Shown: positions 5,706 through 23,711 of the stretch, one piece after another | Position numbering within the stretch: position 1 is the stretch's first letter | How the letters are laid out: each line of letters begins with the position of its first letter | From: an uncultured Bacteroidota bacterium | GTDB lineage: Bacteria; Bacteroidota; Bacteroidia; Flavobacteriales; Flavobacteriaceae | DNA length: 64,000 bases | Direction: 5' to 3' | NCBI GenBank assembly: GCA_902619855.1 | Contig: CACNGE010000001.1 | Coordinates: 1 to 64,000 of the forward strand | The notes under the pieces: model-generated | What the model was told of the DNA's origin: nothing | Seen by the model: the letters and a program-made list of their open reading frames with translations, nothing else | The model's database searches: none | Translations under genes and position numbers: made by a program

Positions 5706-7727
5706 CTACAGCCTCTCAATAATCTTCTGCATCATAGACTTTAGCTTATCTATTTCAGATTGTTGCTCTGATAGAATACTCTGCTGTTCCTTGATCAAAA
5801 CATCTTGTTCTTTAAGCGCATTAATAAGAACAGGCACAAGCCCTTGATAGTTTACAGACTTAACTCCGTGACTTTCTGAAACAAGTTCAGGAAATACTTT
5901 CTCTATGTCTTGTGCAAGTAGACCTATCTTTTGTTTCTCACTCTCATCCTTTTTCATTGTATAGCTCTTACCGTCTATTTGTAGAAGTTTAGACAAAGTA
6001 GAACCAAGAGATACAATGTTTGCTTTAAGGCGTGCATCAGAATTTATGTTAAGATTCCCTGCAAGAGTTGCATCACCATTAAACTTAACTAAAAGTGCAT
6101 CACTTCTGTTATTGAAAGCTGTTCCATTCCCAATTACAAAAGCGGTATTGTCTAAACTAAATTCAGTGGCACTACTTGTTACAGTCGAGCCTGCTAAGTT
6201 ATATTGACCAACTGCTAAAGAACTACAATCACTTGCTGTTGTTCCCTCACCCATAGCTGTTGAATGATCTCCAATTGCGTCTGTGACAAAACCCATTGCA
6301 GTTGAATTGCTTCCGCTTGCTTCTGTATTAGCACCTATAGCTGTTGAATCATCCCCACTAGCTATTGTTCCTCTTCCCATAGCTGTAGAACTGCTTCCAC
6401 TTGCTAAATTATCATTACCAACAGCGAATGCATTTGAACCGCTTGCTGTAGTGTAATCAGCAACCTCAATACCCCCTGCTTCATTACTGTTATAACTAAA
6501 AGGCAGATTAGTAAGTCCGCTACCATCACCAACAAAAGATGAAGCAGTAACGCTTCCCGCTACAGTTGTTGTACCATCGAACAAAACTTTAAATGCATTT
6601 GACCTATTATTTGTATCAGTACCATTCCCAATCACCAAAGCAGTGTTAGTCGTTAAATATGTATCTGGATCAGCATTGTTGCTAACTGAATTATATTGTC
6701 CTAAAGCCACACTGTTAAAAGCATGTGAATTTGTTCCTTGTCCTATTGATAAGGAATGATTTCCAGAAGAAACAGTTTCTCTTCCGAGTGCAGCTGAAGA
6801 ATAACCAGTTGACTGAGTTGATAATCCCCCTGCAAAAGAATTTTCACCAATAGATTGAGTAGTGGTACCAATTGCTAAGGAAGCATTTCCAGTTGCCTGT
6901 GCGCCATTTCCAAGAGCAACACTTGTATCTCCTGAAGCAACAGATACATAACCTCCTGAAATCGAATGAGCGCCTGATGCTGTTGAATCAAGACCAACGG
7001 CAAAAGAGGATTGACCCGTAGCGCCTGTAGTTGTACTTGCAGAACTTTGATAACTTAAATCAACAGCAGTATTGCCAATATCTCCATGATTAGCAGCATT
7101 TGCAGAAGAAAGTCTTACTCCTACATTTCCAGCTTCTGTAACAAAGCTCAAAACACCTATCTCATTATTAGAATAGTTTTTATCATACTCAATTATTGAA
7201 ATTACACCCCATGATTTAATAGAGGTTCCTTCAGACAAAACCATTCCCTCAATCAAAGCTTTGTCTTCAGTTTCATTTGCTTTTCTAAATGTCGATTCGT
7301 CAGGGTTGCCATTTATTCCTGTAGAATAAACACTATAAATTTCAGCAACAGTATTTTCTGGAATAGTATAGGATTCGTCATACCACAAAACTTTAAAAGC
7401 TTTAACATTTGCTTTTAATGACCCAAGGTCATATAATAATGCTCCAGCAGAGAGGCTAGAACTAATTTTATGTCCTTCTGTTAGGATAATTTTTTCTAAA
7501 GACCACCATCCGCCAGAAACTCCATCATTAACCCCAACAGTTCCAGGTTGAGTTGTGCCATCAAAAGGATCCTCTTCAGTTCCTAATGGAAGAGTTTGAA
7601 GAATATACCCAGCCGGAACCGTATAAGTTGGGTTCTCTAAACTTATAACTTCAGAAATATTCATTGGTAACTTAGTATGCTGTGCAAACAGATTAATGCA
7701 AAATAAAATTAAAAATATTCTTTTCAT
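5706..7727 (-). CDS. YadA-head-repeat surface protein with peptidase S74 chaperone domain
   Basis: This 673-residue exported protein has signal peptide MKRIFLILFCINLFAQ. After an N-terminal region of about 220 residues come two blocks of YadA-like head repeats (S-x-A-x-G spacing, about residues 235-340 and 425-500). A GDGSGLTNLP linker of phage-tail-fibre type separates them. Each block ends in a similar unit (VIGNGT..NNRS.A...V.F.G), so there is an internal duplication. The C-terminus is a peptidase S74 intramolecular chaperone: S563-D-A-R-L-K, then IGLLAQDIEKVFPELV, then a trimeric coiled coil. Known S74 domains cleave themselves just before that serine after trimer folding. It overlaps the upstream T9SS gene by four bases, so the two form an operon. 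Confidence 0.85.
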   Translation of the reverse strand: MKRIFLILFCINLFAQHTKLPMNISEVISLENPTYTVPAGYILQTLPLGTEEDPFDGTTQPGTVGVNDGVSGGWWSLEKIILTEGHKISSSLSAGALLYDLGSLKANVKAFKVLWYDESYTIPENTVAEIYSVYSTGINGNPDESTFRKANETEDKALIEGMVLSEGTSIKSWGVISIIEYDKNYSNNEIGVLSFVTEAGNVGVRLSSANAANHGDIGNTAVDLSYQSSASTTTGATGQSSFAVGLDSTASGAHSISGGYVSVASGDTSVALGNGAQATGNASLAIGTTTQSIGENSFAGGLSTQSTGYSSAALGRETVSSGNHSLSIGQGTNSHAFNSVALGQYNSVSNNADPDTYLTTNTALVIGNGTDTNNRSNAFKVLFDGTTTVAGSVTASSFVGDGSGLTNLPFSYNSNEAGGIEVADYTTASGSNAFAVGNDNLASGSSSTAMGRGTIASGDDSTAIGANTEASGSNSTAMGFVTDAIGDHSTAMGEGTTASDCSSLAVGQYNLAGSTVTSSATEFSLDNTAFVIGNGTAFNNRSDALLVKFNGDATLAGNLNINSDARLKANIVSLGSTLSKLLQIDGKSYTMKKDESEKQKIGLLAQDIEKVFPELVSESHGVKSVNYQGLVPVLINALKEQDVLIKEQQSILSEQQSEIDKLKSMMQKIIERL

Positions 7728-12456: not shown

Positions 12457-13839
12457 ATGAAAAATTTATTCTTTGCCCCTTTCTTACTAATACTAGGTGT
12501 TGGCTTAAACGCTCAAATCAGTGTAAACGATAGTCAAATTAAAGATTTGCTAGACCCTATTGATTTGCAAGATGCCGTTTCGAAATCATACCTGTTAGAC
12601 CATATAAATCAGTTACAAGCACAAATCAAATATTTGCAGAAAAACATAAGTGTACCGCCTGCGAATGAATGTATTGATGGAAATGCCGGTGAGTATGAAT
12701 GTTTGGGTATTGACCTCATGTCTACAGTAAGCCTAGAGCAACTTGACGCCGCCGCAGCAAACGACTGTTGGGGCTGGAGTGACACACTAACTGGAAGAGA
12801 ATACGCTATAATAGGCCTTGATAATGGAACAGCGTTTATTGATATTACAATTCCTAATTCCCCAGTCATAATTGGAAAACTACCGACACAAACGCTTGCT
12901 AGTATTTGGCGTGACATAAAGGTTTTTGGAAATCATGCCTATATCGTCTCCGAGGCAGACAATCATGGCATGCAAGTTTTTGATCTCACTCATTTAAGAG
13001 ATACCACAACTTATACGGTTTTTTCTGCCGACAGTCATTATGATGGATTTGGGAATGCGCATAATATTGCGATCAACGAAGACTCTGGTTATGCCTATGC
13101 TGTGGGGACTCAAACATATAATGGGGGTGCTCATTTCATTGATATCACTAACCCTGATAATCCAACCAGTGCTGGGGGGTATGACGAAAAAGGCTATTCT
13201 CATGATGCAATGATTGTTACATACAATGGCCCTGATCTCGACTATAAGGGTAAGGAAATTTATATTGGATCCAATGAAGATGAAGTCGTCATAGTGGATG
13301 TTACTGATAAATCAAACCCGACCTTTATTTCAAGCATACAATACAGCTCAACCCAGTATACCCATCAGGGATGGTTGACAGAAGACCATAAATACTTCCT
13401 TGTTGGGGATGAGTTGGATGAGGTTCAATATGGTATCAACGCAAGAACGATTATTTTGGATTTTTCTGATTTAGATGAGCCAGTGAATCATGTTGAATAT
13501 ATATCTCCAAACGCAGTAGTCGATCACAATGGCTATGTTGTTGGTGACTTATTTTATTTGGCAAGCTACACAGGGGGCCTTCGTATTTTAGGCCTGGAAA
13601 ACATTGAATCAAAAGAAGTTACAGAGAAATATTATTTTGACACTCATATTGGACATGAGACTCAATCAGCTAGAAAACCAGTTATCATTGGATTTGACGA
13701 TGATCATGACAACCCCAGAAAGGGCAATGAAGATTTGTTCAATGGTGCTTGGAGCGTATATCCTTTTTTAAAAAGCGGCAACTTAATTGTTAGTGACATT
13801 AATAAAGGGCTTTTTGTGTTAAAAGTAGATACTTTGTGA
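12457..13839 (+). CDS. Choice-of-anchor B family beta-propeller protein
   Basis: This 460-residue exported protein has signal MKNLFFAPFLLILGVGLNAQ. Residues 28-65 form a short stalk (DPIDLQDAVSKSYLLDHINQ followed by LQAQIKYLQ) of the kind found before coiled coils in fibre-like proteins. The remainder is a beta-propeller of LVIVD-type repeats (AFIDITIPNSPVIIG, HFIDITNPDNPTSAGG, VVIVDVTDKSNPTFIS), the hallmark of the choice-of-anchor B family. It ends in the propeller (GLFVLKVDTL), so no T9SS sorting domain or other anchor is present, although family members often carry one. The ligand and function are unknown. It begins 48 bases after repeat copy D. Confidence 0.85.
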   Translation: MKNLFFAPFLLILGVGLNAQISVNDSQIKDLLDPIDLQDAVSKSYLLDHINQLQAQIKYLQKNISVPPANECIDGNAGEYECLGIDLMSTVSLEQLDAAAANDCWGWSDTLTGREYAIIGLDNGTAFIDITIPNSPVIIGKLPTQTLASIWRDIKVFGNHAYIVSEADNHGMQVFDLTHLRDTTTYTVFSADSHYDGFGNAHNIAINEDSGYAYAVGTQTYNGGAHFIDITNPDNPTSAGGYDEKGYSHDAMIVTYNGPDLDYKGKEIYIGSNEDEVVIVDVTDKSNPTFISSIQYSSTQYTHQGWLTEDHKYFLVGDELDEVQYGINARTIILDFSDLDEPVNHVEYISPNAVVDHNGYVVGDLFYLASYTGGLRILGLENIESKEVTEKYYFDTHIGHETQSARKPVIIGFDDDHDNPRKGNEDLFNGAWSVYPFLKSGNLIVSDINKGLFVLKVDTL

Positions 13840-13977: not shown

Positions 13978-15687
13978 ATGAATAAACTCTACAATTTAAC
14001 ATTAGCTTTATTTCTAACTGGTTTTTGTTATGGACAAACAGTATTTATAAATGAAATTCACTATGATGACGCTAGCAGTGATTCAGGCGAGGGTGTCGAG
14101 ATTGCCGGTCCCTCAGGTACTGATTTAACTAACTACACAATTACTGCCTATAACGGAGGAAATAATGAATCATATAAAACTTTGTCATTGACTGGAGTAA
14201 TACCTGACTTAGGGAGTTCTGGGTATGGAACTATATTTTTTCCCATATCAGGACTTCAAAATGGTGCTCCTGATGGACTTGCGCTTGACAACGCAGGAAC
14301 TCTAATTCAGTTTTTGAGTTACGAAGGATCACCGTTTACAGCCTCTGGCGGACCTGCTGATGGGATAACTTCTACAGATATTGGTGTGGCTGAAACAGGC
14401 ACAACTCCTGACGGACATTCCTTACAACTTAAAGGGACGGGTACTACTTATGAAAATTTTACTTGGGATGGTCCAAAAGCTAATACTTATGATGCAATTA
14501 ATACTGATCAAATTTTTCAAGCTCTAGTGGATCCAACAATAACAATTTCAGTGACTTCCATTTCTGGTCTTGCATATGTTTCAGGGAATAGTTCAATTGT
14601 TTCTGAATCTTTTAGTGTTAGTGGATTAAACTTGAATGAAGGAATTACCATATCTGTACCTCAAGGATTTGAGGCTTCAGAAGATGATACAACATTTTCG
14701 AATGCTGATATTGTTCTTCCGGCTTCCAGCGGTTCTGTATCAACTACTCAAATTTATGTAAAATTATCTTCTGGTCAACAAGAAGGTGATTATTCAGGGT
14801 CCTTAAATATTAATTCAACGGGTTTAAGTGAAAGTGTAACAATTTCTGGACAAGTGTATCCAGATTCATTTGTTAGTAATTTATCTCAAGACTTGTTTAT
14901 AAGTGAATATGCTGAAGGTAGTAGCAGTAATAAATACATTGAAATATACAATCCTACTGCCCAAACTATTGATTTATCTTCATACGCAATTGCTTCTGTG
15001 TCAAACGACCCTACAATTATTGGATGGCATGAAAGTTTTAATACATTTACGGAAGACGCAACAATATCCTCTGGCGAAACATATGTATGGGCTAACTCAG
15101 GTTCAAACGCAACCATTTTAGCTGTAGCTACAGCCCCAACAGGTGAAACTGGAACAGCTTATTTCAATGGTGATGACGGTTATGCGCTTGTTAAAGGCAC
15201 CGAGACTTCATATGTGGTTTTGGATATTATTGGAGATTTCAATGGAGATCCGGGTAGTGGATGGGATGTTGCTGGAGTAAGTAGCGCTACAAAAGATAAA
15301 ACACTTGTTAGAAGGGATTTCGTTACAAAAGGAAATAACAATTGGTCCTCTAGTGCTGGAACGAATTCATCAGATTCTGAATGGGTAGTACTAGACAAAG
15401 ATGATTTCAGTTTTGTTGGGTCTCATCCTCATACAGATGCAACACTATCAATTTTTGGTTTTGAAAATCAACGTGTTAAGGTATATCCTAATCCAGTTGA
15501 AGTGTTACTTAACTTCTCAGGTTTAACGTCACCTGTTCAAGCAACTGTATTTGATATGCTTGGAAAACGTCAGCTTCAAAGTGAAGTGATAAACAGCCTA
15601 GATGTTAGCTCATTAAAATCTGGGTTATATATGGTTGAGATTAAAAATGAAAACAGCGCTAAAGTGTTTAATATCCTTAAGAAATAA
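13978..15687 (+). CDS. Lamin-tail-domain protein with T9SS sorting domain
   Basis: This 569-residue secreted protein has signal MNKLYNLTLALFLTGFCYGQ. It contains two lamin-tail (LTD) domains: VFINEIHYDDASSDSGEGVE near residue 21, and LFISEYAEGSSSNKYIEIYN near residue 305. Between them is a beta-sandwich region (residues 190-295). The last 75 residues, VKVYPNPVEVLLNFSG to AKVFNILKK, are a type A T9SS sorting domain. LTD domains often accompany secreted nucleases and phosphatases in this phylum. The neighbouring EEP hydrolase, TonB receptor and endonuclease I suggest a role in the same cluster, perhaps binding. No catalytic motif is visible. Confidence 0.88.
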   Translation: MNKLYNLTLALFLTGFCYGQTVFINEIHYDDASSDSGEGVEIAGPSGTDLTNYTITAYNGGNNESYKTLSLTGVIPDLGSSGYGTIFFPISGLQNGAPDGLALDNAGTLIQFLSYEGSPFTASGGPADGITSTDIGVAETGTTPDGHSLQLKGTGTTYENFTWDGPKANTYDAINTDQIFQALVDPTITISVTSISGLAYVSGNSSIVSESFSVSGLNLNEGITISVPQGFEASEDDTTFSNADIVLPASSGSVSTTQIYVKLSSGQQEGDYSGSLNINSTGLSESVTISGQVYPDSFVSNLSQDLFISEYAEGSSSNKYIEIYNPTAQTIDLSSYAIASVSNDPTIIGWHESFNTFTEDATISSGETYVWANSGSNATILAVATAPTGETGTAYFNGDDGYALVKGTETSYVVLDIIGDFNGDPGSGWDVAGVSSATKDKTLVRRDFVTKGNNNWSSSAGTNSSDSEWVVLDKDDFSFVGSHPHTDATLSIFGFENQRVKVYPNPVEVLLNFSGLTSPVQATVFDMLGKRQLQSEVINSLDVSSLKSGLYMVEIKNENSAKVFNILKK

Positions 15688-15710
15688 ATAACTTTTTCTA
15701 ATAATTTAAA

Positions 15711-15738
15711 AAGCGGAACTTGTGTTCCGCTTTTTTTT
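15711..15738. terminator. Bidirectional terminator between the LTD and EEP genes
   Basis: AAGCGGAAC (15711-15719) pairs with GTTCCGCTT (15724-15732) around a TTGT loop. A-rich and T-rich flanks serve both convergent genes. Confidence 0.88.
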
Positions 15739-16777
15739 ATTGCTTTTTAATAAGTAAAGCGTAAACAGGGAAGTGATCGCTATAACCTCCAGTAAATTTA
15801 CCACCTGCAAAACTCCTAAAAGGATAGCCTTTATAGCGCCCTTTTTTATTGTAGAGATAACTTGGGTTAAATATTCCTGCTTTCCAAAAATACCAGTTGG
15901 TATCACTTTCGCCTAGTAGGCTAGGGCTCACATGGACTTGGTCCAATACGTTCCACTTGTCGCGATAGCAGCTAGTACCAATTCCTTTTTTATAAAAGGA
16001 CATCATGGGGTTGTAAAAAATACTGTTTTCCGATACTTCGTCTCGTTCACCAACAGCACCCAAAACATCCTCAACACTTTTATTATTGGGGTCATCATTA
16101 AAATCACCCATATTGATGATTTTGGCATTTGGGTTTATGGCACGAATCGAATCAACTGTCTTTCTGTTTAGTTCACCAGCTGCAATGCGCTTTGGCTCGC
16201 TTGTCGCTTGACCACCACTGCGTGAAGGCCAGTGATGAACAATCAAATAAATGAGCTCGTTGTCAAGTAATCCCGACACAACCAACTGGTCTCTTGTGAA
16301 GTCTCGATCACCACCAGAATCAAAGAGAGAAAGAAAATGTGTTTTAGCTCTCAGAAGAGTAAACTTACTTTTCCTATACAACAAGCAAACATCGATACCA
16401 CGTTCGTCAGGCGATTCAAAATGAGCAATCCCATAATTATATTTTTTAAGCTGTGGCGTTTCTACGAGTCGCTCAACCACATAGCGATTTTCAACTTCAG
16501 AAAGGCCAATGACAGCAGGAGGTCCCCCTGTCAGTTCTCGTGCCACATCAGCGATAACAATTGCAGTGTTGGTTAGCTTCTTTTCAAAAATATCTTCTGT
16601 CCAGCGATCACGTCCTTCTGGCGTGCGATCATCGTCTCTAGTTTCTGGATCGTCATAATGATCAAAAAGGTTTTCAACGTTGTAAAACGCAATGGTTTCA
16701 ACGGCATATGTTTGAATTTGCGATCTAGTGTAGAAAAGCGCAAAAAAGAGTAGAATAATTGTTAATGTTTTTTTCAT
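15737..16777 (-). CDS. Secreted endonuclease/exonuclease/phosphatase family hydrolase
   Basis: This 346-residue exported enzyme has signal MKKTLTIILLFFALFYTRSQ and belongs to the EEP (DNase I-like) fold. The catalytic landmarks are in order: AFYNVENLFD (N33, E35-N36), GLSEVEN (metal-binding Glu), VHHWPSRSGG (catalytic His), NMGDFNDDP (Asp-x-Asn) and YSDHFPV (Asp-His). It cleaves phosphodiester or phosphomonoester bonds; the exact substrate is open. It is divergent from the TonB receptor gene with 61 bases between starts, and lies in a cluster with endonuclease I, which points to nucleic acid or nucleotide degradation outside the cytoplasm. Confidence 0.92.
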   Translation of the reverse strand: MKKTLTIILLFFALFYTRSQIQTYAVETIAFYNVENLFDHYDDPETRDDDRTPEGRDRWTEDIFEKKLTNTAIVIADVARELTGGPPAVIGLSEVENRYVVERLVETPQLKKYNYGIAHFESPDERGIDVCLLYRKSKFTLLRAKTHFLSLFDSGGDRDFTRDQLVVSGLLDNELIYLIVHHWPSRSGGQATSEPKRIAAGELNRKTVDSIRAINPNAKIINMGDFNDDPNNKSVEDVLGAVGERDEVSENSIFYNPMMSFYKKGIGTSCYRDKWNVLDQVHVSPSLLGESDTNWYFWKAGIFNPSYLYNKKGRYKGYPFRSFAGGKFTGGYSDHFPVYALLIKKQ

Positions 16778-16838
16778 AATTATTATTCAATTTTAACTAA
16801 AATAAATCTAAATTGCTAAAAAATAAAAAATCATTTTT

Positions 16839-19553
16839 GTGCGCATTTTTATTTTGTTTTTTCTCTCGTTGAGCGTTGGTTTTGCTCAAAATAATGTTTC
16901 TGGGTTGATTGTAAATCAAGATGGTAAGCCCGTTCAAAATGCACTTGTGCAAGCCCCAGAACTCGCTTTGCAAACCCAATCCGACGAAAACGGAAGTTTT
17001 GTATTGGATATTTCTTCTTCTGCTTTACTCACTGTTTCAGCAGATTCTTATCAAACTTATGTTGCTGAGGTATTCCCTGGAGACGTGATCACGATTAATC
17101 TACTTTATGAAGAGGTTGATGGTCTAGATCAATTTTCTGAATCGATGAGTATGATTACCCTAAGCGACGACGAACTGAGTGAAGATGACCAAGCAGCCGA
17201 CAATATTTCTGGCTTGCTGCAATCTTCTCGCGATGTGTTTTTGCGAACAGCTGCCTATGAATTGAGTTCATCTTTTTTTAGAGTCAGAGGTCTTGATTCC
17301 GATTTAGGTTCTGTTCGTATGAATGGTATCCCGATGAATAAGTTTTATAACGGTCGCCCACAATGGAGCAATTGGGGTGGACTCAACGACCTAATGCGCA
17401 ACCAAGAGTTTAATGCTGGACTCCAAACGTCTGATTATGGATTTGGGGGACTGATTGGCTCAACCAACATCAATACTAAAGCCTCTTCATATCGCAGTGG
17501 TGGACGTGTGACCTATTCTTCATCCAACCGATCCTATGCCAATCGTGTGTTGGTAAGTTATGCAAGTGGTCTCAACACCAAAGGATGGGCTTATGCTTTG
17601 GCAGTGTCCAATCGCTGGGGAGAGTCGGGCTTTAATGATGGGACTTTCTACGACGCCCAATCCTTTATGTTGTCGGTTGAAAAGGTGCTCGAAAAACAAA
17701 GTTTAAATCTTACGTTGATTGCAACTCCCAATCGTAGAGGAAAGTCCTCACCTAACACCCAAGAAGTATATGACCTGATGGGTACGAAGTACAATGAGTA
17801 TTGGGGCAATCAAAGTGGGGAGCAGCGAAACTCACGAGTCAAAAGACTTAATGAGCCAATAGTAATGCTAAACCATGAAATCCAGTTGTCTCCTACATCC
17901 ACATTACAATCGAGTGTTGCCTACCAATTTGGGGAGTTAGGAAACAGCCGATTTGATTATCCAGGGGGTGCAAATCCAAGCCCAACCTATTATCAAAAAT
18001 TACCGAGTTATTTTCTTGCTGACGCTGATGGACCTGATTATGCTGGTGCCTTCCTAGCACAAGAGCGATTGTTGACTGATGGTCAGATTGATTGGAATCG
18101 TATATATGATGCCAATCTCACTGCTGCCGCTAGCGATTTGCCAGCTGCATATGTATTGTATGAGGATCGATCAGATGATACGCAACTCACTCTCAACACT
18201 TCTCTCAAATCCTTTTTATCCGACAAAGTGAGTGTTGTATTTGCCTTGACTCATCAAGACTTGCAATCGGAAAATTTTGCTGAAATCCAAGATATGATGG
18301 GAGCCTCACGCTATCTAAACCGCGATTCTTTTGATGGGTATGCTTACAATCTTGAAGACCCAGACGGCATTGCTGGGGTAGGAGATCGATTTAAGTACAA
18401 TTATATTTTTGATGTTCAGCAGACAGAGGCTTTTTTAAAAACCCAATTTTCATTAAATCGATTTGACGGTTTTGCAGCAGGATCATTCAAAAGCACCTCT
18501 TACCAACGCGAAGGTCTTTATCGCCATGGGGCCTATACCGATAATTCATTTGGTAAAGGAAAAAAACTCATCTTTGACGCTCTAAGCGGAAAAGCTGGAT
18601 TGACATATAAGCTCAGTGGAATTCATTTGTTTGATGTCAATGCAGCATGGATGCAGCGCGCACCACACCTGCGAAACACCTATGCCAACTCCAGAGAAAA
18701 TCACTATGTCGTAGGCGAATTGGCGGGGCGTGAACTTGAGCTTGAAGAACTCACCGCTTTTGATGTGAGTTACATATTACGAGCACCAAAACTGACTGCG
18801 CGCCTCACAGCCTATCACACAGTAATTACCAATGCCAGCGAAATCTCTTTCTTTTTTGCTGAAGGAATTGGAGGAGACACCTCTTCTTTTGTACAAGAGA
18901 TTTCACAAAATATCGACAAGGAGTTTCAGGGTGTTGAGTTTGGATTTGAAGCCAATGTTCTCCCAGCACTTACGCTCAAAGGAGCTGCTTCGGTTGGGCG
19001 TCATCTCTATTCCAACGACCCTAGTGTTTACTTGACCTCCGATGACTTTGGGTATTTGGATTTTGGCACTGCAAAAATGAAAAACTTACGGATTGCCAAT
19101 GGACCCCAAGAAGCATATTCAGTCGGATTTGAATACAGAGAGAACTATTGGTGGTTTGGTTTCACGACCAACTTCTTCAATCACACTTATGTCGATGCCA
19201 GCCCAATTAATCGTACCCAAAACTTTTTATTGGACAGCGACGGATTGCCTTTTAATGACTATGATCCAGAGTTGGCAAGAAAATTATTACAGCAAGAGGA
19301 GTTTGGCGAATATATGGTATCCAACGTTGTGCTTGGGAAATCCTGGCGGATCAATCGAAACTTTTTGGGCTTTTTCTTGAGCGTCAACAACCTATTTAAC
19401 GAGGCATTTAAGACTGGTGGATTTGAGCAGTCTAGGAATGCAAATTTCAGAGAACTCCGGCAAGAGTTATCTTCGCCAAAACGGCAGTTTGGACCAAAGT
19501 ACTGGTACGGACGTGGAACGAATTATTTTTTGAATGTATATGTACGATTTTAA
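16839..19553 (+). CDS. TonB-dependent receptor with carboxypeptidase-like N-terminal domain
   Basis: This 904-residue outer-membrane receptor starts at GTG 16839 and has signal MRIFILFFLSLSVGFAQ. Residues 18-90 are a carboxypeptidase-regulatory-like domain (NVSGLIVNQDGKPVQNALVQ). The plug starts near residue 115 (DNISGLLQSSRDVFLRTAAY, then FFRVRGLD), and the beta-barrel follows to the terminal aromatic residue (VRF). It starts an operon with the DUF5689 lipoprotein (19561) and endonuclease I (20909). A SusD gene is absent, so this is not a standard glycan locus. The neighbours suggest the substrate is DNA breakdown products, but that is inference. Confidence 0.9.
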   Translation: MRIFILFFLSLSVGFAQNNVSGLIVNQDGKPVQNALVQAPELALQTQSDENGSFVLDISSSALLTVSADSYQTYVAEVFPGDVITINLLYEEVDGLDQFSESMSMITLSDDELSEDDQAADNISGLLQSSRDVFLRTAAYELSSSFFRVRGLDSDLGSVRMNGIPMNKFYNGRPQWSNWGGLNDLMRNQEFNAGLQTSDYGFGGLIGSTNINTKASSYRSGGRVTYSSSNRSYANRVLVSYASGLNTKGWAYALAVSNRWGESGFNDGTFYDAQSFMLSVEKVLEKQSLNLTLIATPNRRGKSSPNTQEVYDLMGTKYNEYWGNQSGEQRNSRVKRLNEPIVMLNHEIQLSPTSTLQSSVAYQFGELGNSRFDYPGGANPSPTYYQKLPSYFLADADGPDYAGAFLAQERLLTDGQIDWNRIYDANLTAAASDLPAAYVLYEDRSDDTQLTLNTSLKSFLSDKVSVVFALTHQDLQSENFAEIQDMMGASRYLNRDSFDGYAYNLEDPDGIAGVGDRFKYNYIFDVQQTEAFLKTQFSLNRFDGFAAGSFKSTSYQREGLYRHGAYTDNSFGKGKKLIFDALSGKAGLTYKLSGIHLFDVNAAWMQRAPHLRNTYANSRENHYVVGELAGRELELEELTAFDVSYILRAPKLTARLTAYHTVITNASEISFFFAEGIGGDTSSFVQEISQNIDKEFQGVEFGFEANVLPALTLKGAASVGRHLYSNDPSVYLTSDDFGYLDFGTAKMKNLRIANGPQEAYSVGFEYRENYWWFGFTTNFFNHTYVDASPINRTQNFLLDSDGLPFNDYDPELARKLLQQEEFGEYMVSNVVLGKSWRINRNFLGFFLSVNNLFNEAFKTGGFEQSRNANFRELRQELSSPKRQFGPKYWYGRGTNYFLNVYVRF

Positions 19554-19560
19554 AGAAAGT

Positions 19561-20931
19561 ATGATGAAGTTTTTTAGCAGATTTACCAATTTGATAATAG
19601 CAGCTGTGCTCGTTGTTTCCTGTCAACAGGAAGATGTTTTTGACATACCTTATAGTCTTGGCGCAGAGGAAAACCAAATGCTAACCACGCTTTTGTCTGA
19701 TGTTGAAAGCGGGACAATGTCGATGATTTCGATAACTCAATTGAAAGACCTTCGTGTTTCTGGGGAGGCTGTCGAGATTACGTCTGACTTGGTTATGAAG
19801 GGCTATGTGACATCCTCCGATTCCACAGGCAATTTTTATAAGGAAATCTACGTGCAAGATGATCCCAAATCACCCACAGACGCTATACGTCTGTTGATCA
19901 ATCTTACTGATTCCTATAATATGTTCAACCTTGGACGTGAAATATATATTAACCTCAAGGGCCTATACATTGGGGAGTATCGTACAGGAGATGGAGTTGT
20001 TTCTATTGGCTCGCTTGACGTGGGTGAAGATCGTTTATCTCAGATATCGGAAGCATTGACCAAAAAGCACGTCCTTCGTTCAAACGAAACATCCGATCTT
20101 ACGCCACTTTCAGTACAGTTTTCGCAAATCTCCGATGACCATGTGGGTATGATGGTTGAGGTTTCTCAAGTGAGTGTTGTTGCTGCTCAGGTAGGACTAC
20201 CTTATGTTGATCCGGACGACTCTTTTGATACTCAGCGTACATTGGAAGCTTGTGAGGGCTTTGGTAAATCATCTTTTATTTTAGAAACGAGTGCTTATGC
20301 AAATTTTAAGCAAAATTTACTACCATCTGGCACAGGTACTATTCGAGGGATTGTAAGCAAAACCTATGATGGAGACAGCCTTGTTTTAATGTTAAACTCG
20401 ATAGATGATGTAGACATGACAGGGGAAGAGTGTAGTTTGTATGCGTCTGTTTTTGAAGATGACTTTTCGAGTGGGGATTTTACAAATTGGACGACCTATA
20501 ATGTAACGGGCTCACAACAATGGGAGGTTGTAAGTTTTGGCAATCCTGCTCCCAGTGCAAAGATGTCTGGATACAGTGGTGGTGCTAGAGTGAATGAAGA
20601 TTGGCTTATTTCAAAGGCGATTGACTTAAGTGCGAGCTCTGGAAATGTATTTTTTATATTTGATTCTGTTAAAAGATATAGTGGTGACGACATAAAAGTA
20701 TTCTATGCAACAGACTACGCTGGAGGCAACCCAAACTCAGACGGCACATGGTCACAGTTATCACCAACACTTGATACAAATACTGGTTCGTGGAGTTCAT
20801 GGACAAGCTCAGGAGCTCAAACTTTGGATAATGCTACTGGTGGTAATTTATTCATTGCTTTTAAATACACATCAACCTCATCTACTGCAGCCACTTTTGA
20901 GATAGACAATGTCAAAATTGTTGTTGAATAA
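19561..20931 (+). CDS. DUF5689-type surface lipoprotein
   Basis: This 456-residue lipoprotein starts at ATG-ATG 19561 (the frame is open to an upstream ATG at 19534 inside the receptor gene). The signal ends VLVVSCQQED, with the lipid-modified cysteine near residue 24. Residues 50-300 match the DUF5689 pattern of OB-like strands (KGYVTSSDSTGNFYKEIYVQD, GREIYINLKGLYIGEY, GTIRGIVSKTYDGDSLVLML). The C-terminal 150 residues are a jelly-roll binding module (FEDDFSSGDFTNWT to FEIDNVKIVVE). It lies between a TonB receptor and endonuclease I, the position of a SusD-like substrate-capture lipoprotein. Such a role is inferred. Confidence 0.85.
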   Translation: MMKFFSRFTNLIIAAVLVVSCQQEDVFDIPYSLGAEENQMLTTLLSDVESGTMSMISITQLKDLRVSGEAVEITSDLVMKGYVTSSDSTGNFYKEIYVQDDPKSPTDAIRLLINLTDSYNMFNLGREIYINLKGLYIGEYRTGDGVVSIGSLDVGEDRLSQISEALTKKHVLRSNETSDLTPLSVQFSQISDDHVGMMVEVSQVSVVAAQVGLPYVDPDDSFDTQRTLEACEGFGKSSFILETSAYANFKQNLLPSGTGTIRGIVSKTYDGDSLVLMLNSIDDVDMTGEECSLYASVFEDDFSSGDFTNWTTYNVTGSQQWEVVSFGNPAPSAKMSGYSGGARVNEDWLISKAIDLSASSGNVFFIFDSVKRYSGDDIKVFYATDYAGGNPNSDGTWSQLSPTLDTNTGSWSSWTSSGAQTLDNATGGNLFIAFKYTSTSSTAATFEIDNVKIVVE

Positions 20932-21982
20932 TTTGAGAAAGGTATCATATTTTATTTTTTGGGGTTGGCTTTTAGCTCCATCTCTTTCAATTGGCCAGAT
21001 TCCCAGTGGCTATTACAACACGGCTGAAAACAAATCTGATCAGGCACTCCGATTGGCCTTGCACAATATTATTGACGATCACATAGATTATCCTTACACA
21101 AGTAGTTTCACTGACACATGGGATATATTAAAAGTTTCAGATGCTGACCCCAACAATGCAAATAATGTCATTTTGATCTACACTGGAGAGTCTGTAAATG
21201 GACCAGAGGAATATGATGGTTGGAATCGAGAACATGTTTGGGCAAAGTCAAGAGGGGATTTCGGCACCTCACGTCCGATGGGTACAGATGTGCACAACCT
21301 ACGTGCCAGTAACAGCAATGTTAACTCTACACGCTCGAATTATAGTTTTGATAATTGCACTTATAACAGCTGTAATCAGATTTATGGAAATTTGTACAGT
21401 AGCTCTGCACTTGTTTTCGAACCTCGTGATGAGGACAAGGGTGATGTTGCGCGTATTATTTTTTATATGGTTGTACGATATGAAGGAGAAAATGAGGAAG
21501 AAGATTTAGAAATGACTGAAAGTATTCTTTCTACATCAAGTAAATCACCTCGTCACGGCGTTCGCTCAACTCTTTTGGAGTGGCACGAATTAGACCCAGT
21601 TGATGATTTTGAGCTTAACCGAAACGATGTGATTTACAGTTACCAAGGCAATCGAAATCCCTTTATTGATCACCCAGAGTTAGTTGATTTTTTGTGGGGA
21701 GATGAGCAACAAACGCCTTGGAACAGTTCGCTCTCAAACCCTACAGAACTAGTAGATCGTGAATTGTTTGTTCCCAACCCAATCCAAACGAGCTATATCG
21801 ATATCAGTCCAAACCTTAATCCAAACTTCATACAGATTTATAATGCTCAAGGTAAACGAATAAATCAATCGCCAGGTACATTTAAACGACTCAAAATGCC
21901 CATAGCCTCAGGTATTTACTTTTTACGCTTTGTTTTTGATCAAACAATAGTGAACAAGCGAATTGTGGTCAAAGCGCCTTAA
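20909..21982 (+). CDS. Secreted endonuclease I with T9SS sorting domain
   Basis: This 357-residue protein has a signal ending LAPSLSIGQ. The central region is endonuclease I (NucM/EndA family, beta-beta-alpha metal fold), with GWNREHVWAKSRGDFG at residues 105-119 holding the catalytic His109. DVHNLRASNSNVNSTRSN and NPFIDHPELVDFLW follow, as is standard for the family. It degrades extracellular DNA or RNA without base specificity. The C-terminal 70 residues (IDISPNLNPNFIQIYNAQGK to KRIVVKAP) look like a T9SS sorting domain. It overlaps the DUF5689 gene by 23 bases, so it is translationally coupled. Its tail meets umuD, with a 14-base overlap. Confidence 0.93.
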   Translation: MSKLLLNNLRKVSYFIFWGWLLAPSLSIGQIPSGYYNTAENKSDQALRLALHNIIDDHIDYPYTSSFTDTWDILKVSDADPNNANNVILIYTGESVNGPEEYDGWNREHVWAKSRGDFGTSRPMGTDVHNLRASNSNVNSTRSNYSFDNCTYNSCNQIYGNLYSSSALVFEPRDEDKGDVARIIFYMVVRYEGENEEEDLEMTESILSTSSKSPRHGVRSTLLEWHELDPVDDFELNRNDVIYSYQGNRNPFIDHPELVDFLWGDEQQTPWNSSLSNPTELVDRELFVPNPIQTSYIDISPNLNPNFIQIYNAQGKRINQSPGTFKRLKMPIASGIYFLRFVFDQTIVNKRIVVKAP

Positions 21983-22400
21983 GCACATGGGTAACAATCC
22001 CCCAAATCATAAGCTCGTTTTCTTCTGTGACTAGTATGGGTTTATAGCGTTTGTTTTCGGCCATGAGCCATATACAGTCCTTTTCGACTTTGAGTCGCTT
22101 GACTGTAAAATCACCATCGATTAGGCAGACTGCAATTTTTCCATCCTGGGGCTCCAAACTGCGATCAATGACCAGCAAGTCTCCGTCGTCCAAGCCTGCT
22201 CCGATCATTGACTGCCCAGCAACACGTGCGTAAAATGTGGCAGCTTCGTTTTTGACAGCTACCTTGTCTAAGCTAATGCGTGTTTCTTTAAAATCATCGG
22301 CTGGCGACGGAAACCCCGCCGATACGCCTTCTCCTGCTAGCCACACCCCTTGTCCCGAAGTATCGGGAGTGAAGAACTGTAGTCCTCCTTCTTTCTTCAA
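21969..22400 (-). CDS. umuD: UmuD-like DNA polymerase V autoproteolytic subunit
   Basis: This 143-residue LexA/UmuD-type protein of peptidase family S24 has a self-cleavage site A28-G29 (VSAGFPSPADD), nucleophile S64 (AGQSMIGAG) and general base K101 (FTVKRLK). The start is TTG at 22400, preceded by AGAGGAATAGG; no ATG fits. It lies 18 bases downstream of umuC on the same strand, so the order is umuC-umuD, the reverse of the usual umuDC. Processed UmuD would join UmuC in error-prone lesion bypass. No LexA-type operator was recognised. Confidence 0.93.
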   Translation of the reverse strand: MKKEGGLQFFTPDTSGQGVWLAGEGVSAGFPSPADDFKETRISLDKVAVKNEAATFYARVAGQSMIGAGLDDGDLLVIDRSLEPQDGKIAVCLIDGDFTVKRLKVEKDCIWLMAENKRYKPILVTEENELMIWGIVTHVLKAL

Positions 22401-22418
22401 ACCTATTCCTCTTTATGT

Positions 22419-23711
22419 TCAGCGCACACGAATCACGTCACGTACATCGGTTGTGTAGCGTGGTGACAAATGTGCTTGCCTCATCTTATAGGTTCTGTTC
22501 AAGTCTTGATTTGCAATTTTTATTTTATGTGGGCCAAAACGTTTGTGTAGGTAATCGATGCGTTGCATCAAGGCTTGGTGCTTTGGATTTTCATAAGTAA
22601 ACAAGGTCATTTGATAGGCATCCTCTGGTACAATACCTGTAACCATTACCCCAGCTTTTTTATATGATATACCAGATTTATAGATCAAATCTAGGCCTTG
22701 GAGCGCTGTTTTGCTCAGGGTCAAACTCGAGTTGGTGGCAAAGGGCAAATGAATCATTGTGCTGTTGCGATACTGTGGCATGTTGGGCATAAAGGGATTA
22801 CTGCGCACAAACACAACCAGCGCATGGCATCTACTGTTTTGCTTGCGCAGCTTTTCGGCACACAGACTCGCAAAGGTCGAAACACGCTCGCGCAGTTCTT
22901 GAAAGTCATCGATGAGCGATTCAAAGCTACGTGTAGTGGCAATGGCTTTTTTGGGTGCCGCAACCATTTCTAGTGGAATGGAAGATTTCCCGAGCAGGTC
23001 GTGTTTGAGACGAAGCCCAACGACACTCATTTCTTTTCGCACCCAAATATCGGAGAGTTGAGTGAAGTCATAAGCAGTATGTACGTTACGCAACACCAAT
23101 CGTTTGTTGTGGCGATACCCAATGCCCCATACGTCGCCAATGGCAAGCCATTTCAATGCTTTGATGCGCTTTTCTTCAGAATCGATCACATAGACTCCGT
23201 TGGTTCGATCTGCAAATTTTTTAGCCACTCGATTCGCAACCTTTGCCAAAGCTTTACTCGGACCAAGTCCAATACTGACAGGCATTCCCGTCCACTTGCG
23301 AACTCGCTTTTGTATTTGCTGTGCGTAGGCTTCTAAATCGTAATGTTCAAACCCTTCAAACTGTAAAAAGGCCTCATCAATACTATACACTTCCACCAGA
23401 GGGGTAAACTGTTTGAGCACGTCCATCACACGCCGACTCATATCTCCGTACAATGGATAATTTGACGAAAACACCTTGACGTTGTGCTGGTTGAAAAACG
23501 AATGGTAATGATGTGCAGGCGCACCCATGGGCAAGCCCAAAGCCTTGACTTCATTGCTGCGTGCAATCACACAACCATCATTGTTGGAGAGGATAGCAAT
23601 TGGCTTGCCCTCCAACGATGGTTGAAAAACTCGCTCACAAGAAGCGTAAAAGTTGTTACAATCGACAAGTGCAAACACATTCAAAAATACACTTTTTAAA
23701 CATGATTTCAT
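22419..23711 (-). CDS. umuC: UmuC-like DNA polymerase V catalytic subunit
   Basis: This Y-family translesion polymerase has up to 430 residues. The N-terminal motif FALVDCNNFYASCERVFQP gives the metal-binding Asp, and YSIDEAFLQF holds the catalytic Asp-Glu. The palm and helix-hairpin-helix (GIGYRHNKRL) come next, then the little-finger domain and a UmuC-type C-terminus ending VRDVIRVR. The ATG at 23711 adds 11 residues before the usual start; a GTG at 23678 (V-F-A-L-V-D-C) is the alternative. It is divergent from sucA and first in an operon with umuD. It is probably induced by DNA damage, but the 81-base intergenic region shows no clear operator. Confidence 0.95.
   Translation of the reverse strand: MKSCLKSVFLNVFALVDCNNFYASCERVFQPSLEGKPIAILSNNDGCVIARSNEVKALGLPMGAPAHHYHSFFNQHNVKVFSSNYPLYGDMSRRVMDVLKQFTPLVEVYSIDEAFLQFEGFEHYDLEAYAQQIQKRVRKWTGMPVSIGLGPSKALAKVANRVAKKFADRTNGVYVIDSEEKRIKALKWLAIGDVWGIGYRHNKRLVLRNVHTAYDFTQLSDIWVRKEMSVVGLRLKHDLLGKSSIPLEMVAAPKKAIATTRSFESLIDDFQELRERVSTFASLCAEKLRKQNSRCHALVVFVRSNPFMPNMPQYRNSTMIHLPFATNSSLTLSKTALQGLDLIYKSGISYKKAGVMVTGIVPEDAYQMTLFTYENPKHQALMQRIDYLHKRFGPHKIKIANQDLNRTYKMRQAHLSPRYTTDVRDVIRVR

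Follow-up and report, generated by a model that had tools for sequence, protein, structure and literature searches.

The window, a 64,000-nucleotide stretch of contig CACNGE010000001.1 from an uncultured member of the Flavobacteriaceae, holds a group of five open reading frames, all of which were confirmed from the ORF list and from Pfam/NCBIfam profiles at the coordinates and with the domains that a first-pass annotation had given them. The first gene (13978..15687, + strand) encodes an LTD-domain protein with a T9SS sorting tail (Pfam LTD, 57.7 bits; Por_Secre_tail), an accessory member that fills a variable slot adjoining the EEP gene. It converges with the gene of an EEP-family hydrolase (PF19580, 380 bits; 15737..16777, - strand) onto a terminator-like hairpin with a 12-pair stem and a T run (15708..15735, + strand). 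On its other side, the EEP gene is divergent from that of a TonB-dependent receptor with a CarboxypepD_reg N-terminal extension and a GTG start (16839..19553, + strand; recognized by profiles and fold), and the short intergenic region of 61 nt between them (16778..16838, no strand assigned) is a candidate shared control region; this gap measures 61-62 nt in the window and in congeners L168, L169, and L170. The receptor is followed by a surface lipoprotein with DUF5689 and choice-of-anchor J domains (19561..20931, + strand; DUF5689 210 bits, choice_anch_J 58 bits) and by an endonuclease I with a T9SS tail (20909..21982, + strand; Endonuclease_1, 152.8 bits), which is the third operon gene in this clade. 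For the lipoprotein, a start at 19561 (M-K-FF..., lipobox VVSC) is more likely than the upstream in-frame start at 19534, and it lies 7 nt past the receptor stop; since the endonuclease I gene in turn overlaps the DUF5689 gene by 23 nt, the three-gene operon proposed in the first-pass annotation is well supported, and the spacing points to co-transcription of the receptor and DUF5689 genes.

Several neighbors of the locus were also recorded. A UmuD-like peptidase and a UmuC polymerase are encoded at 21969-23711 (- strand), the UmuD-like gene overlapping the 3' end of the endonuclease I gene by 14 nt, and a choice-of-anchor B protein at 12457-13839 (TIGR04312, 497 bits) recurs with 89-92% identity close to the module of congeners L169 and L172. 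Farther away, positions 5-1102 encode the folate enzyme HPPK fused to a deoxynucleoside kinase domain, which might act in DNA salvage, and positions 5706-7727 (- strand) a protein with YadA-head repeats and an S74 endosialidase-chaperone domain that adjoins a T9SS-tail protein.

The receptor falls just below threshold for two general models (Plug, 23.4 bits against a cut-off of 23.9; CarboxypepD_reg PF13620, 30.3 bits against 32.3) and scores 1246 bits against a 31-row profile of its own family; the PDB matches listed for its structural model (pLDDT 79) are TonB receptors only, including PqqU, Fiu, and FecA. Neither the receptor nor the DUF5689 protein matched any SusC or SusD model in Pfam or NCBIfam, for which reason a SusCD utilization locus was rejected, and the earlier proposal that the lipoprotein stands in the place of SusD is reduced to a positional analogy. 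The NCBIfam lipoprotein model M949_1556 spans the DUF5689 protein from end to end (228 bits, below its cut-off of 475). Across the aligned DUF5689 proteins, the lipobox cysteine is invariant and is usually followed by acidic residues; the C-terminal domain varies among loci, being choice-of-anchor J/DUF5017, LTD, or DUF6359. In the structural model of the window protein (pLDDT 88), two stretches with an OB-like strand order, the first being b-b-b-a-b-b, precede a jelly roll, and the hypothesis that the protein may bind DNA through an OB fold derives from this model. No sequence relative of the protein was found in the PDB, and its PDB structure matches are dominated by the C-terminal jelly roll, so that they probe the OB part little.

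The jelly roll itself resembles carbohydrate-binding and adhesin domains in the structure search, and M949_1556, the namesake of the lipoprotein model, is cited for roles in the LPS, antigenicity, and virulence of Riemerella anatipestifer; both observations would suit a receptor and lipoprotein that serve another substrate or surface process, such as LPS or surface protein assembly, beside nuclease genes that are neighbors by coincidence. Such a role is very improbable in view of the EEP linkage in nearly all sampled genera, the operons, a DUF5689-endonuclease I fusion, and the specific transformation phenotype considered below.

Within the EEP protein, residues E94/E96/N97, H182, D225/N227/D228, and D334/H335 are invariant in 20 relatives; a PDB sequence search with it gave no match. 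It carries a signal peptide by inspection and lacks a T9SS tail, and it is therefore probably periplasmic, which is likelier than full secretion. An additional EEP paralogue that shows no clear signal peptide, and is thus probably cytoplasmic, lies convergently downstream of DUF5689 in 11/43 family loci (L048:5876-6850, L053:5610-6578, L062:10122-11090, L073:8693-9631, and others). The endonuclease I resembles Vvn (1oup) and keeps the REHVW and VHNLRASN...N (D-x-HNL...N) motifs with the catalytic Glu-His and Asn, and it is predicted to be a nuclease of the Dns/Vvn type. The LTD protein partially matches the ExeM nuclease model, as the sole ExeM match among the LTD, EEP, and DUF5689 genes of the window; it shares 45% identity over 259 aa with an LTD-bearing endonuclease I of congener L168 and 60% over 176 aa with a triple-DUF5689/LTD protein of L152, and the slot beside the EEP gene is filled by LTD-like proteins in several congeners.

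In terms of distribution, DUF5689 was found in 186 of the 201 sampled Flavobacteriaceae-like genomes, nearly all of which represent separate genera, and usually in one copy. A divergent EEP gene upstream of an adjacent, same-strand receptor-DUF5689 pair occurs in 57/59 Flavobacteriales loci (44 from the family and 15 from neighboring families), a fraction that may be somewhat inflated because the loci were picked from high-scoring matches; receptor and DUF5689 are adjacent in all 57 loci that have a receptor. Among the 46 loci from named genomes, the pair is adjacent in 45 and the EEP gene lies upstream in 35; no adjacent EEP gene accompanies the pair in the sampled Flavobacterium species, the EEP gene comes after DUF5689 in Bacteroides finegoldii, and in Rikenellaceae it is co-directional, about 50 nt upstream, and operonic. 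Outside Flavobacteriales, DUF5689 is patchy, and the module appears in variant order, sometimes as one operon, in Bacteroidales and Cytophagia; in other classes, the genes for EEP, endonuclease I, LTD, and DUF5689 turn up in rearranged order, as fusions, or within operons. The core of EEP, receptor, and DUF5689 thus appears to be older and more general than the window locus alone reveals. Two uncultured Lutibacter loci (L059 and L130), in or near a genus that assimilates DNA carbon (PMC8289736), have the receptor-DUF5689 pair surrounded by two or three EEP genes. Two further congeneric loci (L166:8309-19693 and L167:1706-13089) have a short DUF5689 protein (286 aa), a very divergent receptor, and a T9SS protein between EEP and receptor.

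In the window's clade (L150, L151, and L168-L172), endonuclease I takes the third place in the operon, after receptor and DUF5689; elsewhere it lies upstream of the receptor (L152), beyond the EEP gene (nine other loci), or in an operon (Aureibacter). When its presence is mapped as a label on the receptor tree, nine changes are obtained, of which at least seven are forced on well-supported branches; endonuclease I has entered the locus several times, and it does not belong to the core. A five-gene unit was ruled out, with endonuclease I and the LTD protein accessory across the sampled loci. In Flammeovirga, an operon reads EEP, EEP, receptor, DUF5689/DUF6359/LTD, and endonuclease, the last protein being a DUF5689-endonuclease I fusion (L162:12086-14281, Flammeovirga kamogawensis plasmid p1, WP_205125548.1).

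Comparison of the window locus with its congeners gave pN/pS values of 0.06-0.38, depending on gene and pair, which indicates purifying selection; as an arrangement kept across genera and under such selection, the gene order is not due to chance. Constraint between congeners is strongest on the receptor and the EEP gene; DUF5689 and endonuclease I evolve more quickly, which is what surface-exposed parts would be expected to do. The DUF5689 protein of the window (19561-20931) is 56-61% identical to those of L170 and L171, against 86-92% identity for the receptors of these congeners, a difference that suggests diversifying pressure on the exposed lipoprotein.

A function for the core is offered by R. 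anatipestifer, a duck pathogen in which RA0C_RS04915 (receptor-like, with CarboxypepD_reg) and RA0C_RS04920 (DUF5689 and DUF5017) are both indispensable to natural transformation: unmarked deletion of either gene yielded no transformants, the two genes are adjacent in one operon that is widespread in Flavobacteriaceae, and DNA binding and import were proposed for their products (Huang et al. 2021, PMC8459023). In the same species, deletion of tonBA lowers transformation without an iron-uptake defect (PMC8383284); F. johnsoniae is not transformable under the same conditions despite having homologues (PMC7965970). In the literature searched, no TonB-dependent DNA importer was found outside R. 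anatipestifer, and the transformation role of the pair is shown in that species only (PMC8459023). In domains and in adjacency, the window pair matches the RA0C pair, and orthology may be drawn from the domains, the adjacency, and published identity ranges; a profile scan of named genome contigs returned Chryseobacterium, Flavobacterium, and others, with Riemerella not among them, and the receptors of Chryseobacterium and other Weeksellaceae-like loci are 34-35% identical to that of the window.

The association with competence was further followed in size-matched small genomes, 21 with DUF5689 and 15 without, to which the co-loss comparison was restricted. The receptor (profile score >500 bits) is absent from 15/15 genomes without DUF5689 and present in all strong-DUF5689 genomes of the set; receptor and DUF5689 are lost together. 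ComEC occurs in 19/21 genomes with DUF5689 and 6/15 without (Fisher p=0.002), and DprA in 17/21 and 7/15 (p=0.07); under a stricter definition of the module (receptor >500 bits), the values become p=0.01 for ComEC and p=0.16 for DprA, all four being uncorrected for relatedness. Endonuclease I could not serve as a neutral gauge of genome reduction, since it also tracks DUF5689 (12/21 vs 2/15). One complete genome (G030) keeps ComEC and DprA with the module absent. The gene dprA immediately follows DUF5689 in L159 and is near the EEP gene in L166, L167, and L088; in L166 and L167, dprA, trpS, and recA all fall within 10 kb of the module. In the small Weeksellaceae-like genome G356 (L148:4952-6739), comEC precedes the receptor by about 12 kb, which recalls R. 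anatipestifer, where recA, comEC, and the pair have closely spaced gene numbers. Given the transformation phenotype in R. anatipestifer, the near-universal, mostly single-copy spread, and the co-absence with ComEC, a competence importer that brings DNA across the outer membrane is the best reading of the core.

The first-pass annotation had instead described a nucleic-acid utilization locus. Its nucleic-acid part is borne out by the co-occurrence of DUF5689 with nucleases, which was encountered throughout the genomes compared, the opposite of one outcome that the annotation had named as refuting it, by fusions and operons in other classes, and by the joint loss of receptor and DUF5689; its grouping of the genes is thus well founded, if loosely bounded. 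Utilization in the form proposed is not borne out, because nearly all genomes of the family carry the core, mostly in one copy, unlike patchy utilization loci, and because the published role of the pair in R. anatipestifer is transformation and not feeding (PMC8459023). A purely nutritional locus, with an indirect transformation defect in Riemerella, could draw on the flavobacterium Lutibacter, which assimilates DNA carbon in sediments as seen by isotope probing (PMC8289736) and of which an uncultured member (L130) has the module together with two EEP genes; on the repeated joining of endonuclease I to the locus, as counted on the receptor tree; and on Vibrio cholerae, in which use of DNA phosphate needs the nucleases Dns and Xds (LTD-OB-EEP) (PMC3212620, PMC6746945). 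It is nevertheless unlikely, since two unmarked deletions each fully abolished transformation (PMC8459023), absence of the near-universal, mostly single-copy core goes with absence of ComEC, and removal of phosphate lowered rather than raised transformation of R. anatipestifer (PMC8383284).

The window's own lineage departs from this picture. An operon of receptor, DUF5689, and endonuclease I occurs in eight genomes (six members of the genus, G063, and G153), and a full DprA match was found in 0/8 of them at 58-89% completeness; the chance of this result from incompleteness is about 6e-6, or about 6e-5 without G153, the contig of which ends at a thioesterase, a gene near dprA in relatives. ComEC is kept in three of these eight DprA-less genomes (G581, G587, and G153). 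The absence of DprA together with the endonuclease I operon is one correlated change in one lineage and not a statistical law. Competence might persist in the window organism as well, with endonuclease I only trimming long DNA, clearing biofilm DNA, or regulating uptake, and with dprA and comEC missing through incomplete assembly: the pair is essential for transformation of R. anatipestifer (PMC8459023), congeners G583 and G584, which have no endonuclease I operon, still have dprA and recA no more than 10 kb from the module, ComEC is present in four genus members, and the window genome (G000), in which neither ComEC nor a full DprA match was found, is only 73% complete. This explanation has a minor share of the probability, for it is opposed by the missing DprA match in all eight genomes and by the finding that a secreted Dns-type nuclease hinders transformation of Vibrio cholerae (PMC3212620), which also fits a shift to scavenging. 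A change in the window clade from gene uptake to DNA scavenging is consistent with these data and plausible.

Taken together, the locus is rather likely to be a surface DNA-acquisition system built on a competence-type outer-membrane importer of Bacteroidota, with the window lineage having probably shifted to cutting DNA outside the cell, importing the fragments, and using their phosphate and nucleosides. From its anchor on the cell exterior, the DUF5689 lipoprotein would bind DNA through its OB-like domains and pass it to the partner TonB-dependent receptor, which would use TonB energy to draw it into the periplasm, a step in keeping with the gene deletions that abolish transformation of R. 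anatipestifer (PMC8459023); DNA transport by the pair is our inference. The divergently transcribed EEP hydrolase would then trim or degrade the incoming DNA in the periplasm, and in most relatives, one strand would proceed through ComEC to DprA and RecA. In the window lineage, the operon of the importer also encodes the T9SS-secreted endonuclease I, and no DprA was found; the system has therefore probably shifted to scavenging, in which fragments would be imported for phosphate and nucleosides; scavenging is plausibly a modification of the competence importer and not a SusCD-type locus. A wider proposition, held tentatively and at somewhat less than even probability, is that receptor, DUF5689 lipoprotein, and periplasmic EEP nuclease make up a phylum-wide, pilus-independent, TonB-powered DNA importer of Bacteroidota that serves either gene exchange or feeding, the window clade representing a switch in which DprA was lost while the importer remained and became linked to a secreted endonuclease I.

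To our knowledge, a pilus-secretin route for DNA across the outer membrane has not been shown in Bacteroidota. For this crossing, the locus provides a concrete candidate complex of receptor, lipoprotein, and nuclease carried by most Flavobacteriaceae; the published transformation phenotype is thereby tied to nuclease partners, and lineages with and without the recombination step become available for comparison. If the reading is true, TonB receptors import DNA, and one importer stands behind both horizontal gene transfer and the recycling of marine extracellular DNA.

Among known systems, the RA0C_RS04915/04920 pair resembles the window most directly in having an adjacent TonB-receptor-like protein with CarboxypepD_reg and a lipoprotein with DUF5689 plus DUF5017/choice-of-anchor domains; the available part of the report gives no EEP or endonuclease I link for that pair (PMC8459023), whereas the window has endonuclease I as the third gene of the operon and, in an incomplete genome, no dprA was found. 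The "DNA-degradation loci" of Izemoplasmatales likewise bring together genes for secreted nucleases, among them LTD proteins that carry nucleic-acid-binding domains, but these organisms have no outer membrane and use nucleoside/base transporters in place of a TonB receptor (PMC8289736). A SusCD locus shares with the window the order of an outer-membrane TonB receptor and then a surface lipoprotein, together with secreted hydrolases; however, the window has neither a SusC/SusD match nor a glycan-active enzyme, and its modelled lipoprotein consists of all-beta domains, whereas SusD is mainly helical. For the Vibrio cholerae nucleases Dns and Xds, we know of no importer partner. These enzymes belong to the same nuclease families as those of the window, namely endonuclease I (Dns) and LTD-OB-EEP (Xds), and they jointly permit the use of DNA phosphate (PMC3212620, PMC6746945); LTD, OB, and EEP form one polypeptide in Xds/ExeM, whereas in the window LTD, the OB-like domain, and EEP each reside in a protein of their own, in company with a TonB receptor.
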